This document shows, piece after piece, positions 31,246-36,521 of a stretch of DNA of 64,000 bases. This DNA comes from Variovorax paradoxus (GTDB lineage Bacteria > Pseudomonadota > Gammaproteobacteria > Burkholderiales > Burkholderiaceae_C). Location: NCBI RefSeq assembly GCF_030811855.1, contig NZ_JAUSRN010000006.1:62001-126000 (forward strand), in the 5' to 3' direction. The notes under the pieces are model-generated. The model did not search any database. It was not told the DNA's origin and was given only the letters and a program-made list of their open reading frames with translations. Each line of letters starts with the position of its first letter. The first letter of the stretch is position 1. The translations under genes and the position numbers were made by a program.

Positions 31246-32601
31246 TCAGGCAGGCCGCAGCACGATGCGCGCCTCGAACCCGCTGGCGGCCCCTGCCGGC
31301 GGCGAGGCCAGTTCGAGTTTCGCGTTGTGCTTTTCGACGATGGTGCCCACGATCGACAGGCCGAGTCCGTAGCCCGCTCGGTCGGAGCTGTGCCGCACGT
31401 GGCGCTGCTGCAGCGTGGCGAGCTGCTCCGCGCTGACACCGGGGCCGAAGTCGCGCACGGCGAGCGTGCAGGGCGCCATCACCTCGATCACCACGCGGCC
31501 GCTGCCGCCGTAGTGCAGGGCGTTTTCCACCAGGTTGCGCAACGCGATGGCCAGCGCATCGACGTCGCCCGATGCCACTGGCGCGACGGCGTCGGGCACC
31601 TTGAGCGCCAGGCGCTCGCTGATCTCCGGGTCTTTCCAGAATTCTTGCACCACCGCACCCGCAAGCTGCACCAGATTGACCTGCGAGCGCGCAAGCGACG
31701 CACCCGATTCGGCACGCGAGAGCTGGAGCAGCTTCTCGGTGCGGTGGCTGAGAATCTGCAGCGCGTCGAGGGCGGCCTGCACGTCGTTGCGCCGCAGGTC
31801 GTGCTCGAGCGCCGTCTGCAGCCGCAGCCGTGCCGCGGCCAGTGGCGTTCGCAGTTCGTGGGCCGCGTTGGCGGCCAGCGCGCGCTCCACGTCCAGTGAC
31901 TGCGACAGGCGCTCCAGCAGGCTGTTGACGTGGTCGCCCACCGAGCGCAGCTCGCGCGGCAGGCCGGGCAGCGTGATGGGCCGCAGGTCGGTGCCGCTGC
32001 GCTTCTGGATTTCGCCCGCAAGCTCTTGCAGCACGCGCAGTTCGGTGCGCGCCACGTTGCGCAGCACCAGCGCGAGGAGAGGCAGCACTGCGCCCAGTGG
32101 AATGATCAGGCCATAGAGCGTGCGATTGAGCGCGGTGCGCCGCTCGTCGAGCGGATCGGCCACCTGGAAGTAGAGGCCGCGCACGGGGTGCCGCACGGTG
32201 TAGACGCGCCAGGTCTGGTTGTTGGCAAAGCCGGAGGCCAGCGGCACGTCGAAGGCCCCGTTGGATGCCTCGGCCGAGCGCAGCAGCACATGCTCGTGGA
32301 TGTCCACGATCTGGTAGTTCACGGCGTCTTCCGAGAACAGCTGCTTGGGCGCGACCATCGGCAGGGCCGAAGGCGTGCCGTTCTGCTGCAGCTTGTCGAG
32401 TTCCTGCACCGCCATGTCGAACATGCGGTGCGACACCTCGGCCAGTTCGTTGTCGAAGTTGTGGTTGATTTCGCGGTCCACATACCAGACCACGGCCAGC
32501 ACGCACAGCATCCACACGCCTCCGACCCAGACGATCAGCGTGCGAGTCAGGCGGCCGGCCAGGGTGTCGGGGCCGGTCTGTTTTGCGAAAACTGCACTCA
32601 T
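31246..32601 (-). CDS. sensor histidine kinase, PmrB/QseC-type
   Basis: The 451-residue inner-membrane kinase has TM1 near residues 20-42, a periplasmic domain of about 120 residues, TM2 near 162-182 and a HAMP-like linker. The phosphoacceptor His248 lies in NAAHELRTPLAAARL, and ATP-binding boxes are LVENALHYGG (N), DFGPG (G1) and GLGLSIV (G2). It overlaps the response-regulator gene by 4 bp (ATGA), so the two are co-translated. Next to PAP2 and eptA genes, it probably senses envelope conditions such as cationic compounds or metals. Lipid A control is inferred from neighbours. Confidence 0.9.
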   Translation of the reverse strand: MSAVFAKQTGPDTLAGRLTRTLIVWVGGVWMLCVLAVVWYVDREINHNFDNELAEVSHRMFDMAVQELDKLQQNGTPSALPMVAPKQLFSEDAVNYQIVDIHEHVLLRSAEASNGAFDVPLASGFANNQTWRVYTVRHPVRGLYFQVADPLDERRTALNRTLYGLIIPLGAVLPLLALVLRNVARTELRVLQELAGEIQKRSGTDLRPITLPGLPRELRSVGDHVNSLLERLSQSLDVERALAANAAHELRTPLAAARLRLQTALEHDLRRNDVQAALDALQILSHRTEKLLQLSRAESGASLARSQVNLVQLAGAVVQEFWKDPEISERLALKVPDAVAPVASGDVDALAIALRNLVENALHYGGSGRVVIEVMAPCTLAVRDFGPGVSAEQLATLQQRHVRHSSDRAGYGLGLSIVGTIVEKHNAKLELASPPAGAASGFEARIVLRPA

Positions 32602-33272
32602 TCGTCGTCGTCTGCCGAAGTCGACAGGCGATAGCCGAGGCCGCGCAATGTCTGAATGTGGCTCTTGCCCAGCTTGCGCCGCAGCCGGCTGATGAACACC
32701 TCGAGCGTGTTGCTGTCGGCCTCGTCGCCGAAGCCGTAGAGCGCGTCGGCCAGGTTCTCGCGGGTGTGGATGCGCTCGGGCCGCGTGGCCATGACGCGCA
32801 GCAGGGCCCATTCTTTCTGGGTCAGGACCACCGGGTTCCCGTCCTTGCGGACCTGGTCATGAGCCAGGTCGATCTCCAGCGTGCCGAGTTGCAGCACCGG
32901 CGCAGTGCCGGCGCTGCGCCGCCGCTCGACCGCTCGCAGCCGCGCCAGCAGCTCGGCCGGGTCATAGGGCTTGATGAGGTAGTCGTCGGCGCCAGCGTCG
33001 AGCCCGCGGATGCGGTCGGTGACCTGGTCGCGCGCGGTCAGCACGATGACGATGGGGGGCTCGCGCAGCGCGCGCACCTGCGGCAGCAGCGAGAGGCCGT
33101 CGCCGTCACCCAGGTGCAGGTCGAGCAGCACGGCGGCGTACTGCACCGCATGCAGGGCACCCCGGGCCTCGGCGAGGCTGGACGCCACGTCGACAACGAA
33201 AGCCTTCGCAAGCAGATAGCTGCAGACGGCGTCTGCCAACGCACTGTCATCTTCGACGAGCAATATGCGCAC
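32598..33272 (-). CDS. OmpR-family response regulator, PmrA/QseB-type
   Basis: The 224-residue regulator has a receiver domain with phosphorylated Asp51 (LLDLHLGDGDG), the acidic pair VEDD at residues 7-9 and Lys in DDYLIKPYDP. A C-terminal winged helix follows (FISRLRRKLG, TLRGLGYRL). The frame starts with GTG at 33272; no strong ribosome-binding site is seen. First gene of the two-component operon. The TTCAG direct repeats at 33335-33372, 11 bp apart, lie just upstream on the divergent side and are the best candidate for its own binding site. Confidence 0.9.
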   Translation of the reverse strand: MRILLVEDDSALADAVCSYLLAKAFVVDVASSLAEARGALHAVQYAAVLLDLHLGDGDGLSLLPQVRALREPPIVIVLTARDQVTDRIRGLDAGADDYLIKPYDPAELLARLRAVERRRSAGTAPVLQLGTLEIDLAHDQVRKDGNPVVLTQKEWALLRVMATRPERIHTRENLADALYGFGDEADSNTLEVFISRLRRKLGKSHIQTLRGLGYRLSTSADDDE

Positions 33273-33334
33273 GCGAGGTCATCTTTCTTCAAAAAACCGA
33301 GTCTAGCGCCGACGGCAGGGCGGTCCGGGAGCAC

Positions 33335-33388
33335 GTCAGCTTTCGTTCAGGCCCGCTTCAGGCTTGGTTCAGCCCAGGAAAGTAGGCT
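33335..33388 (+). promoter_or_regulatory. 11-bp-spaced TTCAG boxes and promoter before the first PAP2 gene
   Basis: TTCAG occurs at 33346, 33357 and 33368, each exactly 11 bp apart, with a degenerate GTCAG a further 11 bp upstream at 33335. Ten bases after the last box is TAGGCT (33383-33388), a possible -10. Direct half-sites one helical turn apart, followed by a -10 at this distance, are the layout of PmrA/PhoP-type activated promoters. The same boxes precede eptA. Confidence 0.65.
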
Positions 33389-33430
33389 CGCGAGGTTTCC
33401 CAGACTTGTATTTCCGCCTGTTTCCCGCCC

Positions 33431-34156
33431 ATGACGCGTGTCCCGAATCTGCCGGTTGCTTCGAATCTTCGCCTGGGGGCGCTGACCCTCCTGGCCTTGG
33501 TGCTCCTGCTGGCGTGGGACGCCACCGGCGGCGACCTCGCCCTGGCGCGGCTCGCGGGTACGCCCATGGGCTTTCCCTGGCGCGACAACGCTTTTCTGGT
33601 CCATGTGATGCATGAAAGCGCCAAGAACCTGAGCTGGCTGTTCGTGATTGCGCTGTTCGCCGGCATTCGCTGGCCGCTGGGCGTGTTGCGGCGGCTGCCG
33701 GTGCGCGGACGGGTGCAGCTGGCCTTCACCGTACTGCTCTCGGTGCTTGCGGTCAGCGTGCTCAAGCATGCGAGCCACACGAGCTGCCCGTGGGACCTGA
33801 AGGAATTCGGCGGCGTGGCAAGCCACGTGTCGCATTGGGCGTGGAAGGTCTACGACGGCGGCGCGGGCGGGTGTTTTCCGGCCGGCCACGCCTCGGCCGC
33901 GTTCGCCTATGCGGGCGGCTATTTTGTGCTGCGCCGGGTGGCGCCGCGCGCCGCGCTCGTGTGGCTCGGCGTATCGCTGGCTGCGGGCCTGGCGCTGGGG
34001 CTGTCGCAGCAGCTGCGCGGCGCGCACTACATGAGCCACACGCTTTGGACGGCGTGGATCTGCTGGGTGGCGGGCTTTGCCATCGATCTGGTTGCCGCAC
34101 CGCGCGCCTCCGGTTTGCCAGCGGCCCGACCTGCTGCCCAGCATGCAGGCCCTTGA
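33431..34156 (+). CDS. PAP2-family membrane phosphatase
   Basis: The 241-residue protein has five or six membrane helices and a PAP2 site with variant signatures: KHASHTSCPW in place of K-x6-RP, FPAGHAS for PSGH, and RGAHYMSHTLW carrying the third-motif Arg and His. This CPW variant is seen in a membrane-associated PAP2 group. A lipid phosphate in the cell envelope is the likely substrate, for example a lipid A or isoprenoid phosphate, given the downstream eptA. It overlaps the next PAP2 gene by 14 bp. Confidence 0.8.
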   Translation: MTRVPNLPVASNLRLGALTLLALVLLLAWDATGGDLALARLAGTPMGFPWRDNAFLVHVMHESAKNLSWLFVIALFAGIRWPLGVLRRLPVRGRVQLAFTVLLSVLAVSVLKHASHTSCPWDLKEFGGVASHVSHWAWKVYDGGAGGCFPAGHASAAFAYAGGYFVLRRVAPRAALVWLGVSLAAGLALGLSQQLRGAHYMSHTLWTAWICWVAGFAIDLVAAPRASGLPAARPAAQHAGP

Positions 34157-34712
34157 TGTCGCGCTGTTCGAACTGATCAACGCAAGCGCCGCGGCGCCGG
34201 CGTGGAGCATTCATTTCGCGCGCTTTGTCTCCGATGTGCTGCCCGCCCTGTTGGGCGCGGCCATTCTCTGCGGCGGCCTGATCGACCGGCGCCTGCGCTA
34301 TGCCTGCTTCACAGCGCTGGTGAGCGTGATTGCCGTCTGGCTCTTCGTGAACGTGTTTCGCTCGGTCATGCCGTTTCACCGGCCCGCGTTCTACGGCCTG
34401 GGCATCCAGTGGGCGCCGCAGGGCGCCCGGCCGGGCTTCCCCAGCCTGCATGCCGCGTGCACCTTCGCGGCGGCGTTCTCGCTGTGGTGCCTGCCCTGGC
34501 GCACACCGATGCGCGCGGCGCTGGTGCTGGCTGCGGTGGTCGGATGGAGCCGGGTGCTCCTGGGGCTGCACTTTCCATTCGACGTGGTCGTTGGCGCCAT
34601 GCTCGCCGCCGTGGTCTCCATCATGGTGGAGCGCGGCGTCAGCCGGCCGCTGAACCTGGCGCTCAGGGCCTACATGCGGCCCAGGCTGAGGGCAAGAAGG
34701 GCGCGAGCCTGA
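34143..34712 (+). CDS. PAP2-family phosphatase, undecaprenyl-diphosphatase-like
   Basis: The 189-residue membrane protein has the three PAP2 motifs: RSVMPFHRP, FPSLHAAC (a PSxH form) and SRVLLGLHFPFD. The length and order resemble BcrC-type undecaprenyl-pyrophosphate phosphatases and lipid A 1-phosphate enzymes. The ATG at 34143 lies inside the end of the preceding gene, so translation is coupled. Whether it recycles undecaprenyl carrier or acts on lipid A cannot be decided from motifs. Confidence 0.8.
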   Translation: MQALDVALFELINASAAAPAWSIHFARFVSDVLPALLGAAILCGGLIDRRLRYACFTALVSVIAVWLFVNVFRSVMPFHRPAFYGLGIQWAPQGARPGFPSLHAACTFAAAFSLWCLPWRTPMRAALVLAAVVGWSRVLLGLHFPFDVVVGAMLAAVVSIMVERGVSRPLNLALRAYMRPRLRARRARA

Positions 34713-34763
34713 ACGCCGGCTGAACGCGCAATTCAGGCTTCCTTCAGTTGCGCTTCCTACAGT
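34709..34763 (+). promoter_or_regulatory. response-regulator boxes and promoter of eptA
   Basis: Two CTGAA half-sites (34709, 34720) are followed by two TTCAG half-sites (34732, 34743). Each pair is spaced 11 bp, and the two pairs are in opposite orientation. TACAGT at 34758-34763, ten bases after the last box, is a fair -10. A transcript would then begin at about the eptA ATG at 34770, leaving almost no leader. The first half-site overlaps the stop of the PAP2 gene. Confidence 0.6.
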
Positions 34764-34769
34764 AGGCGC

Positions 34770-36521
34770 ATGTCATTTTCGCGAATCGAACCCGCGCCCG
34801 CGCGCCGCATGGGTCCGTCGGCGGCCAGTCTGCCGTATCTGGAGCCTGCGCGCGCGCTCTGGGCGCGTTTCGACCTGTGGCTCACGCAGCCGCGCTCGGC
34901 TCAAAAGATCGTCGTCTGGCTGGCCATCTACATGGCCGCGGCCGCCAACTGGCCGCTGTGGAACGAGCTGGCGCGCATCGGCGGCGCGCCCAGCACCTAC
35001 TTGCCCACCATCGCGGCCATGGCGGTGCTCATGGTGTGCGCCACGGTGGCGCTGCTGTCCTTCACCGCCTGGTCGCGCTGGATGAAGCCGCTGTGGTTCG
35101 CGGTGGTGCTGCTGGCGGCCTTTGTGCAGCATTACATGCTCGAGTACCGCGTGGTGATGGACCCGACCATGATCGCCAACGTGCTGCAGACCGACCCGAA
35201 CGAGGCGCGCGATCTGATGAGCTGGCGCATGGCCTTTCACGTGCTGCTGGTGATGCTGCTCCCGGCCCTGGCGCTCTGGCGAATGCGCATCATGCCGATG
35301 CGCTTCGTCGCCAAGCTCTGGCGCAATGCCGCGCTGCTCTTGCTGGCCCTGGCCGTTGCTCTGGTGGCCGCCGTGTCGATGAACCGGCAGCTTGCGCCGC
35401 TCATGCGCAACAACATTCACCTGCGCTACATGATGAACCCGGTGGCCAGCCTGTATTCGGCCGGCTCCGTGCTCATCAAGCCGATGTTCAAGCGCAGCCG
35501 CAAGCTGATTCCCATCACCGCCGGAACCACGCTGGGCGCAAGCTATGCCGGCCAAGCGCGTCCGCCGATGTTCGTCATGGTGGTAGGCGAGACGGCCCGG
35601 GCCGACCACTTCGGCCTCAACGGCTATGCGCGCGACACCACGCCCGAGCTGGCCGCGCGCGGCGTGCTGAGCTACCGTGACGTGCATTCGTGCGGCACCA
35701 ATACGCTGGCCTCCGTGCCTTGCATGTTCTCGCCCCTCGGCAAGCAGGGCTACGAATCGCGCAAGGACGACTACGAGAACCTGGTCGACGTGCTCCAGGC
35801 TGCGGGGTTGGCGGTGCTATGGCTCGACAACCAGGCCGGCTGCAAGGACGTCTGCACGCGCATTCCGAATGCCTCTGCATTCGATACCCTTTCACCGGCG
35901 CAGAAGAGCGCACTGTGCGACGGCGAGGAATGCCTGGACGACGTGATGCTCAAGGGACTCGACGAGCGCATTGCGGCGCTGCCGGCCGAGCGCCGCGCCA
36001 AGGGCGTGGTGCTGGTCATGCACCAGATGGGCAGCCACGGGCCGGCCTACTACAAGCGTTCTGCGCCTGACGTGAAGCGCTTCCTGCCCGAGTGCAAGAC
36101 CAACGCGCTGGCCGAATGCGGCCATGCGGAGCTGCAGAACGTGTATGACAACTCGATTGCCCAGACCGACCGTTTCCTGGCCCAGACCATCGACTGGCTC
36201 AAGGCACAGTCGAACCAGTACGACCCGGCCTTGCTCTACGTGAGCGACCACGGCGAATCGCTTGGCGAGTACGGCCTGTTTCTGCACGGCGTGCCCTACA
36301 GCTTTGCACCGGAGGCGCAGAAGCACGTGCCCATGGTCACCTGGTTCAGCGACGGCATGAGCCAGCGCCGCAAGCTCTCGCGCCCGTGCATGGAGGCGGG
36401 GCTCGATACGCCGCTAACGCACGACAACCTCTTTCACACCGTGCTGGGGTTGATGGACGTGGGCAATTCCACCTACAAGCCCGCGCTGGACGCGCTCGCG
36501 TCCTGCCGCAACAAGACCTGA
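34770..36521 (+). CDS. eptA: phosphoethanolamine--lipid A transferase EptA
   Basis: The 583-residue enzyme moves phosphoethanolamine from phosphatidylethanolamine to lipid A, lowering surface charge and sensitivity to cationic peptides. Five N-terminal membrane helices (residues about 45-205) precede a periplasmic alkaline-phosphatase-fold domain. The site is complete: Glu in VGETARADHF, nucleophile Thr312 in CGTNTLASVPCMFS, and zinc ligands in YVSDHGESLGE. Cysteine pairs expected for disulfides are present (SCGTN/VPCMF, GCKDVC, LCDGEEC). MCR-type colistin-resistance enzymes belong to the same family, but this is a chromosomal copy under its own two-component system. Confidence 0.93.
   Translation: MSFSRIEPAPARRMGPSAASLPYLEPARALWARFDLWLTQPRSAQKIVVWLAIYMAAAANWPLWNELARIGGAPSTYLPTIAAMAVLMVCATVALLSFTAWSRWMKPLWFAVVLLAAFVQHYMLEYRVVMDPTMIANVLQTDPNEARDLMSWRMAFHVLLVMLLPALALWRMRIMPMRFVAKLWRNAALLLLALAVALVAAVSMNRQLAPLMRNNIHLRYMMNPVASLYSAGSVLIKPMFKRSRKLIPITAGTTLGASYAGQARPPMFVMVVGETARADHFGLNGYARDTTPELAARGVLSYRDVHSCGTNTLASVPCMFSPLGKQGYESRKDDYENLVDVLQAAGLAVLWLDNQAGCKDVCTRIPNASAFDTLSPAQKSALCDGEECLDDVMLKGLDERIAALPAERRAKGVVLVMHQMGSHGPAYYKRSAPDVKRFLPECKTNALAECGHAELQNVYDNSIAQTDRFLAQTIDWLKAQSNQYDPALLYVSDHGESLGEYGLFLHGVPYSFAPEAQKHVPMVTWFSDGMSQRRKLSRPCMEAGLDTPLTHDNLFHTVLGLMDVGNSTYKPALDALASCRNKT

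Follow-up and report, generated by a model that had tools for sequence, protein, structure and literature searches.

TTCAG repeats as predicted sites of a divergent PmrA-like regulator at the PAP2 and eptA promoters of Variovorax

Introduction

In Variovorax paradoxus, the region between a response regulator gene and a divergent gene for a PAP2-family phosphatase contains a pentanucleotide repeated at a strict interval of 11 bp, which raises the question of which protein reads these repeats and which genes are controlled through them. An earlier note on the window (the whole stretch of 64,000 nucleotides analysed here) had proposed that they are sites of a PmrA-like regulator with a half-site other than the TTAA type, possibly a code specific to the Comamonadaceae. 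According to excerpts of three studies (PMC4660055, PMC3973317 and PMC10927774), PmrA binds head to tail and controls lipid A modification genes, including eptA/pmrC; the excerpt of PMC10927774 gives its half-sites as CTTAAT/CCTAAG, YTTAAK or HTTAAD, with TTAA cores. In the titles and beginnings of abstracts of the open literature, we found neither a TTCAG site of a PmrA-like regulator nor a leaderless eptA described, a search of PMC10597456 for site words gave none, and the excerpts of PMC9045368 had no bearing on the site.

Results

Genes of the locus

The genome that contains the window comprises 6,209,629 bases (41 contigs), and by eptA its closest named relatives are Variovorax. On the minus strand lie the genes of a PmrB/QseC-like sensor histidine kinase (31246..32601; Pfam domains 2CSK_N, HisKA and HATPase_c) and of the response regulator (32598..33272), divergent from two PAP2 genes and eptA on the plus strand. 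The regulator domains PF00072 and PF00486, with 78.3 and 76.0 bits both above cut-off, assign it to the OmpR/PhoB family. Among the 80 models that matched it, the PmrA equivalog NF007928 gave the top score, which at 208.6 bits stayed under the cut-off of 330, and the PhoB model reached 157.6 bits against a cut-off of 296; the NCBIfam and Pfam matches, together with solved relatives, characterise it as PmrA-like. For the kinase, the best NCBIfam model was PmrB, with 149 bits under a cut-off of 314. The first PAP2-family phosphatase (33431..34156, plus strand) was recognised by PF01569 (42.5 bits), and its nearest NCBIfam model, PAP2_lipid_A, scored 54 bits, under the cut-off of 275. PF01569 also matched the second one (34143..34712, plus strand; 60.9 bits), a longer reading of which, from 34077, gave 71.9 bits with an undecaprenyl-diphosphatase model, under its cut-off of 229. 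The product of the eptA-like gene for a lipid A phosphoethanolamine transferase (34770..36521, plus strand; PF08019 and PF00884) passes NF028537 with 520.1 bits (cut-off 500) and fails the EptA equivalog NF008619 with 458.6 bits (cut-off 660). Kinase, regulator, PAP2 phosphatases and phosphoethanolamine transferase are found together as in the PmrAB/EptA polymyxin-response circuit, but the scores under the PmrA, PmrB and EptA equivalog cut-offs and the divergent layout with two separate promoters set the locus apart, and it is probably a variant of that circuit.

For comparison, the window was combined with 80 EptA relatives with flanks of 5 kb. The regulator divergently adjoins the genes in 62 of these 80, with an identity of 72-96% wherever it exceeds 60%.

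Repeats before the first PAP2 gene

Read directly, the array consists of GTCAG at 33335-33339 and TTCAG at 33346-33350, 33357-33361 and 33368-33372, with a step of 11 bp, followed after 10 nt by the −10-like hexamer TAGGCT (33383..33388, plus strand). The three perfect boxes, the degenerate one and the hexamer of the earlier description were confirmed at these positions. PAP2 transcription is predicted to start near 33395, which would give a leader of about 36 nt. On the other side, TAGACT (33300..33305, minus strand) is a candidate −10 element of the regulator gene; AGTCTA is present on the regulator side in many relatives, as judged by eye and uncounted.

Among the related loci, 57 have both the regulator and the first PAP2 gene, and in 56 of these the proximal pair TTCAG-N6-TTCAG (33357..33372, plus strand) is kept together with the −10 element, whereas a counterpart of the distal direct pair GTCAG-N6-TTCAG (33335..33350, plus strand) is recognisable in only 25 of 56 relatives, at a step between the pairs of 10 bp in 21 and of 11 bp in four. 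The four-copy 11-bp array as a functional unit was therefore rejected. An inverted pair is found at this promoter in one of 56 loci.

A second putative operator before eptA

The genome scan for TTCAG-N6-TTCAG-N10-TAnnnT, suggested earlier as a way to more targets, yielded one further site, before eptA (34732-34763): the exact pattern has two matches in the 6.2-Mb genome, at the PAP2 and the eptA promoter, and the backwards pattern none. A search for a wider regulon in the same genome with TTCAK-N6-TTCAK-N10-TAnnnT returned these two promoters only (backwards control 0). Without the −10 element, TTCAG-N6-TTCAG occurs 12 times in the genome, four of them at the locus, and its backwards control once. 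None of the eight remaining places (L102-L104 and L109-L113) has a −10 element; no genes were called near them, which carries little weight given a strict ORF filter. Within the window, TTCAG-N6-TTCAG with at most one mismatch was counted nine times against 2.16 expected, a number reached in none of 100 shuffles. The sites appear to define a small dedicated regulon of two promoters, that of eptA being the better conserved.

At the eptA promoter, the direct pair (34732..34747, plus strand) is followed by the −10-like hexamer TACAGT (34758..34763, plus strand), identified from the sequence and its relatives. Window included, 63 of the 81 sequences have the pair when up to one mismatch is allowed and the 200 nt preceding the EptA match are considered, and it is absent in the other 18. 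Farther upstream lies an inverted pair, CTGAA at 34709-34713 and 34720-34724 as read on the plus strand (34709..34724, minus strand), whose first box shares bases with the second PAP2 gene's stop codon at 34710-34712. Its conservation was followed in 52 loci, a set that leaves the window out and does not require the reading frame, and hence includes L053. Upstream of the direct pair, CTGAA at −23 to −19 and CTGA at −12 to −9 are found almost throughout, and CTGAA-N6-CTGA is complete in 44 of the 52, with inverted half-sites 11 bp apart and 12 bp from the direct pair. The stop codon as the whole cause of this pair was considered and rejected: it coincides with the first CTGA in 17 loci and with the second in 25, while the remaining 10 have it at another position or lack a matched upstream gene. 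It can therefore explain no more than one of the boxes, and its partner is conserved as well. The eptA operator would then comprise four conserved half-sites, half of them inverted, and the two promoters seem to have the proximal pair in common and to differ in the distal one. The earlier note had missed this better-conserved operator, both its direct copy (34732-34763) and its inverted pair (34709-34724).

In the window sequence, no TTGACA-like −35 element is visible at either promoter, so both look activator-dependent. A bound regulator might instead repress by covering the −35 region, and the overlap of the half-sites with the −35 position at both promoters would suit such a role. We nevertheless regard repression as highly improbable, given the missing −35 element and a geometry like that of PmrA and PhoB, where half-1 lies over −35 with activation (PMC4660055, in excerpt). 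Activation from these sites is the reading that we prefer. A site that replaces the −35 element and an 11-bp period are also features of the pho box read by PhoB, which differs from the present case in half-site sequence (TGTCA-type), in target genes and in the sequence of the protein.

Conservation and reach of the motif

Conservation upstream of homologous loci, on which the earlier proposal had been made to depend, was found. The pair with its −10 element is present in at least one promoter in 60 of the 62 regulator-bearing loci and in none of 5950 base-shuffled segments, a comparison in which the shuffle did not preserve dinucleotides and the related loci are not independent. Both promoters have it in 47 of the 62, only that of PAP2 in nine, only that of eptA in four and neither in two (L080 and L086, under a strict rule). 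The exact pattern occurs in 32 of 37 genomes, namely the window and 36 relatives of the genus, with a backwards control of zero. Extended to TTCAG-N6-TTCAG-N10-YANNNT-N6-ATG, it has a match in 78 of the 101 genomes scanned within the genus, against none of the 101 for the backwards control.

Beyond the genus, matches become sparse. Within the family, the ATG-containing pattern occurs in 23 of 399 genomes, namely all five Variovorax genomes and 18 of the 394 remaining ones; seven of these 18 non-Variovorax matches were fetched, six of which represent the same locus (L114-L119) and one a place elsewhere (L123). At class level (274 genomes), a stricter pattern picks out two genomes besides that of the window. 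For other families, where 24 genomes were scanned, the motif and its backwards control each hit two, so single matches there are background. A regulator of this kind adjoins eptA in records named Xylophilus, Polaromonas and Xenophilus.

The repeats might be chance sequences inherited without function, as all loci are related and their conservation is partly shared ancestry. However, the boxes, the −10 element and the spacing to the ATG are fixed while the spacers take 31 to 41 different sequences (in the 52 loci, 31 distinct half-site spacers, 41 distinct N10 and 37 distinct N6 before the ATG), and the genus-wide matches stand against controls of zero. To chance we attribute a negligible probability, and we read the repeats as functional sites.

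Several loci deviate from the common arrangement. The eptA genes of Comamonas (L089-L095) are preceded by TTCAG-N6-TTAAG with a CANNNT hexamer at 10 nt; an ATG at the leaderless position is missing, as is a close regulator alongside. As to the suggested code specific to the Comamonadaceae, all exact locus matches in the genomes scanned come from the window's family, and Comamonas eptA with its mixed TTCAG/TTAAG site is a partial exception. At L124 and L125, regulator and eptA are directly divergent and the boxes also face the regulator gene, so that one operator may serve both directions. Variovorax sp. J22R193 has a second eptA with both PAP2 genes (L047), without an adjoining regulator or TTCAG pair; its other copy (L066) has the regulator and the pair. 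Finally, three matches in the genus lie without regulator or eptA: L120 (G016), L121 (G019) and L122 (G024). At L120 (G016:C12:530402), the full pair, −10 and ATG are followed by a short membrane-protein-like reading frame; at L121, the frame opened by the ATG stops after five codons; and at L122 (G024:C5:177123), a terminator-like hairpin with a T run lies no more than about 50 nt behind pair and −10, an arrangement that could be a small RNA or chance. As further targets, the three were taken as chance or undecided.

Predicted start codon of eptA

In 52 of the 81 sequences (51 of them distinct over 54 nt), an in-frame ATG follows the first T of the pair at a distance of exactly 38 nt; in L085 and L096 the distance is 39 nt. 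In the window this ATG is 34770..34772 on the plus strand, the predicted start of both eptA and its transcript. The 38-nt spacing leaves 6 nt between the −10 hexamer and the ATG, and transcription from a sigma-70-type promoter starts about 6 nt past the −10 hexamer. Transcription from a promoter with this −10 element would be expected to begin at the ATG, so the eptA mRNA is predicted to be leaderless. A Shine-Dalgarno match of at least 3 nt is absent in 46 of the 52 sequences, the window among them, and the other six reach 4 nt at best.

The stretch behind the ATG has the signature of coding sequence. Across the window's clade (27 sequences), codons 2-12 showed 994, 950 and 1780 differences at the first, second and third codon position, and a synonymous share of 0.60 compared to 0.29 in shuffled columns, with none of 500 shuffles as high. 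The same-frame stretch upstream of the ATG had no such signature in the 27 sequences.

It is also conceivable that the sites are real and that eptA starts downstream with an ordinary leader, for example at ATG 34809, in which case ATG 34770 would mark only where the RNA or a short conserved peptide region begins. This in-frame ATG of the window lies at +77 of the motif, some alternative in-frame start is found in the scanned stretch in 32 of the 52 sequences (in three of them upstream), and the EptA models match from near residue 45, so that the N-terminus is an extension. The downstream alternatives, however, lie at varying places, and among those listed only one (L070) has a Shine-Dalgarno match of 5 nt; in 20 of the 52 the scanned stretch contains no other start, and codons 2-12 behind the conserved ATG show the coding signature described above. 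We consider a downstream start unlikely. The simplest reading would be that translation and transcription start at the same base, that of the conserved ATG; conserved −10 and ATG predict, but do not prove, a leaderless transcript. Read-through transcripts from the PAP2 genes would have a leader.

The N-terminal extension of EptA in this group comprises about 45 residues ahead of the model-matched part (34770-34900), and its first dozen residues are the best conserved.

Candidate recognition residues of the regulator

The closest solved structures of the regulator are those of PmrA/BasR (8jo2 and 4s04). In PmrA numbering it has Ser187, Asn188, Val192, Phe193, Ser195, Arg196 and Arg210, with Phe193, Ser195 and Arg196 at the places of His193, His195 and Asn196 in PmrA. 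Positions 187, 188, 192, 195, 196 and 210 read SNVSRR in all 67 relatives that exceed 60% identity and whose sequence includes the helix (one more, L073, is cut). According to an excerpt of PMC4660055, Asn188, Asn196 and Arg210 of PmrA contact bases; of this trio, the regulator keeps Asn188 and Arg210 and has arginine for Asn196. An earlier model, excerpted from PMC3973317, proposed His193 and His195 as specificity determinants of PmrA and had no contact for Asn196, so that the two excerpts disagree on this residue. In the latter excerpt, Arg201 of PhoB, equivalent to PmrA Asn196, bonds guanine, and the present regulator resembles PhoB in having arginine there. With PmrA/BasR as its nearest structure and with reading residues that differ from those of PmrA at positions where a change in specificity would be expected, the regulator fits the earlier proposal, and the idea of a PmrA-like regulator with a non-TTAA half-site gains support.

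TTAA-type pairs, for example TTAAG-N6-TTAAG, occur near His195/His196 regulators at L098, L099, L127, L143, L144 and L170. The Comamonas genome G341 has both kinds, Arg196 beside TTCAG-N6-TTAAG and His196 beside TTAAG-N6-TTAAG. Arg196 regulators at L041, L069 and L125 also face a TTAAG half-site in mixed pairs, and Comamonas G251 has TTCAG-N6-TTAAG before eptA with no Arg196 regulator among the matches at E <= 1e-40. A clear pair was not found upstream of the His- or Gly-type regulators L166-L169 and L172, nor upstream of L171. Order-wide, there were 46 other EptA matches in 200 genomes, 40 of which were fetched, and an Arg196 regulator lies beside eptA in two; this set has few comparable regulators, so it informs the test of residue 196 against the half-site only in part. 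The half-site code is soft, not strict, and the contrast between residues and half-sites amounts to nearly one phylogenetic event. The pattern fits an arginine that reads the guanine opposite the C of TTCAG.

An OmpR-family regulator other than the divergent one could bind the repeats: the genome has at least four more at 42-44% identity, and eptA of Comamonas testosteroni has a related site with no close copy of the regulator nearby. The four listed paralogues, however, read YHG, HHH, NYR and LHG at positions 193/195/196, no TTCAG pair with a −10 lies upstream of them, and site and adjoining regulator are conserved together in the 60 of 62 loci described above. Such a regulator is in our view quite unlikely, and we attribute the sites to the divergent PmrA-like one.

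Discussion

The TTCAG repeats are predicted to be sites of the divergent PmrA-like regulator that replace the −35 element at the PAP2 and eptA promoters, and the regulator very probably switches on the lipid A-modifying genes through them. In the mechanism that we propose, a phosphorylated dimer would bind TTCAG-N6-TTCAG head to tail, with the half-sites near −38 and −27, and bring RNA polymerase to the −10 element located 10 nt downstream. A second dimer would lie farther upstream by one and two turns of the helix, oriented like the first at the window's PAP2 promoter and inverted at that of eptA. Arg196 on the recognition helix would read the guanine opposite the C of TTCAG, where PmrA has Asn196 on TTAA-type sites. 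At eptA, with −10, 6 nt and ATG in succession, transcription would start at the start codon and the mRNA would be leaderless. We infer binding, activation, start site, leaderless translation and the role of Arg196 from sequence comparison, and the reading as a whole, with regulator sites at two class-II-type promoters, activation, recognition through Arg196 and a leaderless eptA, has in our judgement a good probability, short of near certainty.

With the PmrA box of Klebsiella pneumoniae, Salmonella and Acinetobacter, the sites share two direct half-sites one helical turn apart over the −35 position, here with an 11-bp period. The TTAA core of that box is absent; TTCAG stands at both promoters and in nearly all relatives. 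The eptA promoter of Variovorax differs further in its inverted second pair and in its fixed distance to the ATG, and we know of no PmrA promoter with either feature. Leaderless mRNAs of the Burkholderiales are common in one relative, Cupriavidus metallidurans, where 4.67% of the primary starts give a 5' leader of less than 5 nt according to an excerpt of PMC7563307; what distinguishes the present case is that leaderlessness is predicted from a genus-wide spacing of activator site, promoter and ATG at a lipid A gene.

In its widest form, the proposal is a genus-wide "operator-to-AUG ruler", by which an operator of switched specificity makes every activated eptA transcript begin at the AUG; we give this an even chance of being true. 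For the PmrA-like branch of the Comamonadaceae, the comparison provides a testable recognition code, with residues 193, 195 and 196 and the matching bases as candidates. In annotation, the start codons of Variovorax eptA genes can be assigned from the operator, and a search with the motif leads straight to the regulon. The locking of activator site, −10 and start codon at one spacing, in 52 of 81 sequences, is a rare natural repeated case, suited to studies of the reason for which a stress-response gene would lack a leader. If the ruler holds, lipid A modification in Variovorax would be tied to leaderless translation, with no ribosome-binding site needed, and eptA translation may persist when ordinary initiation is impaired.
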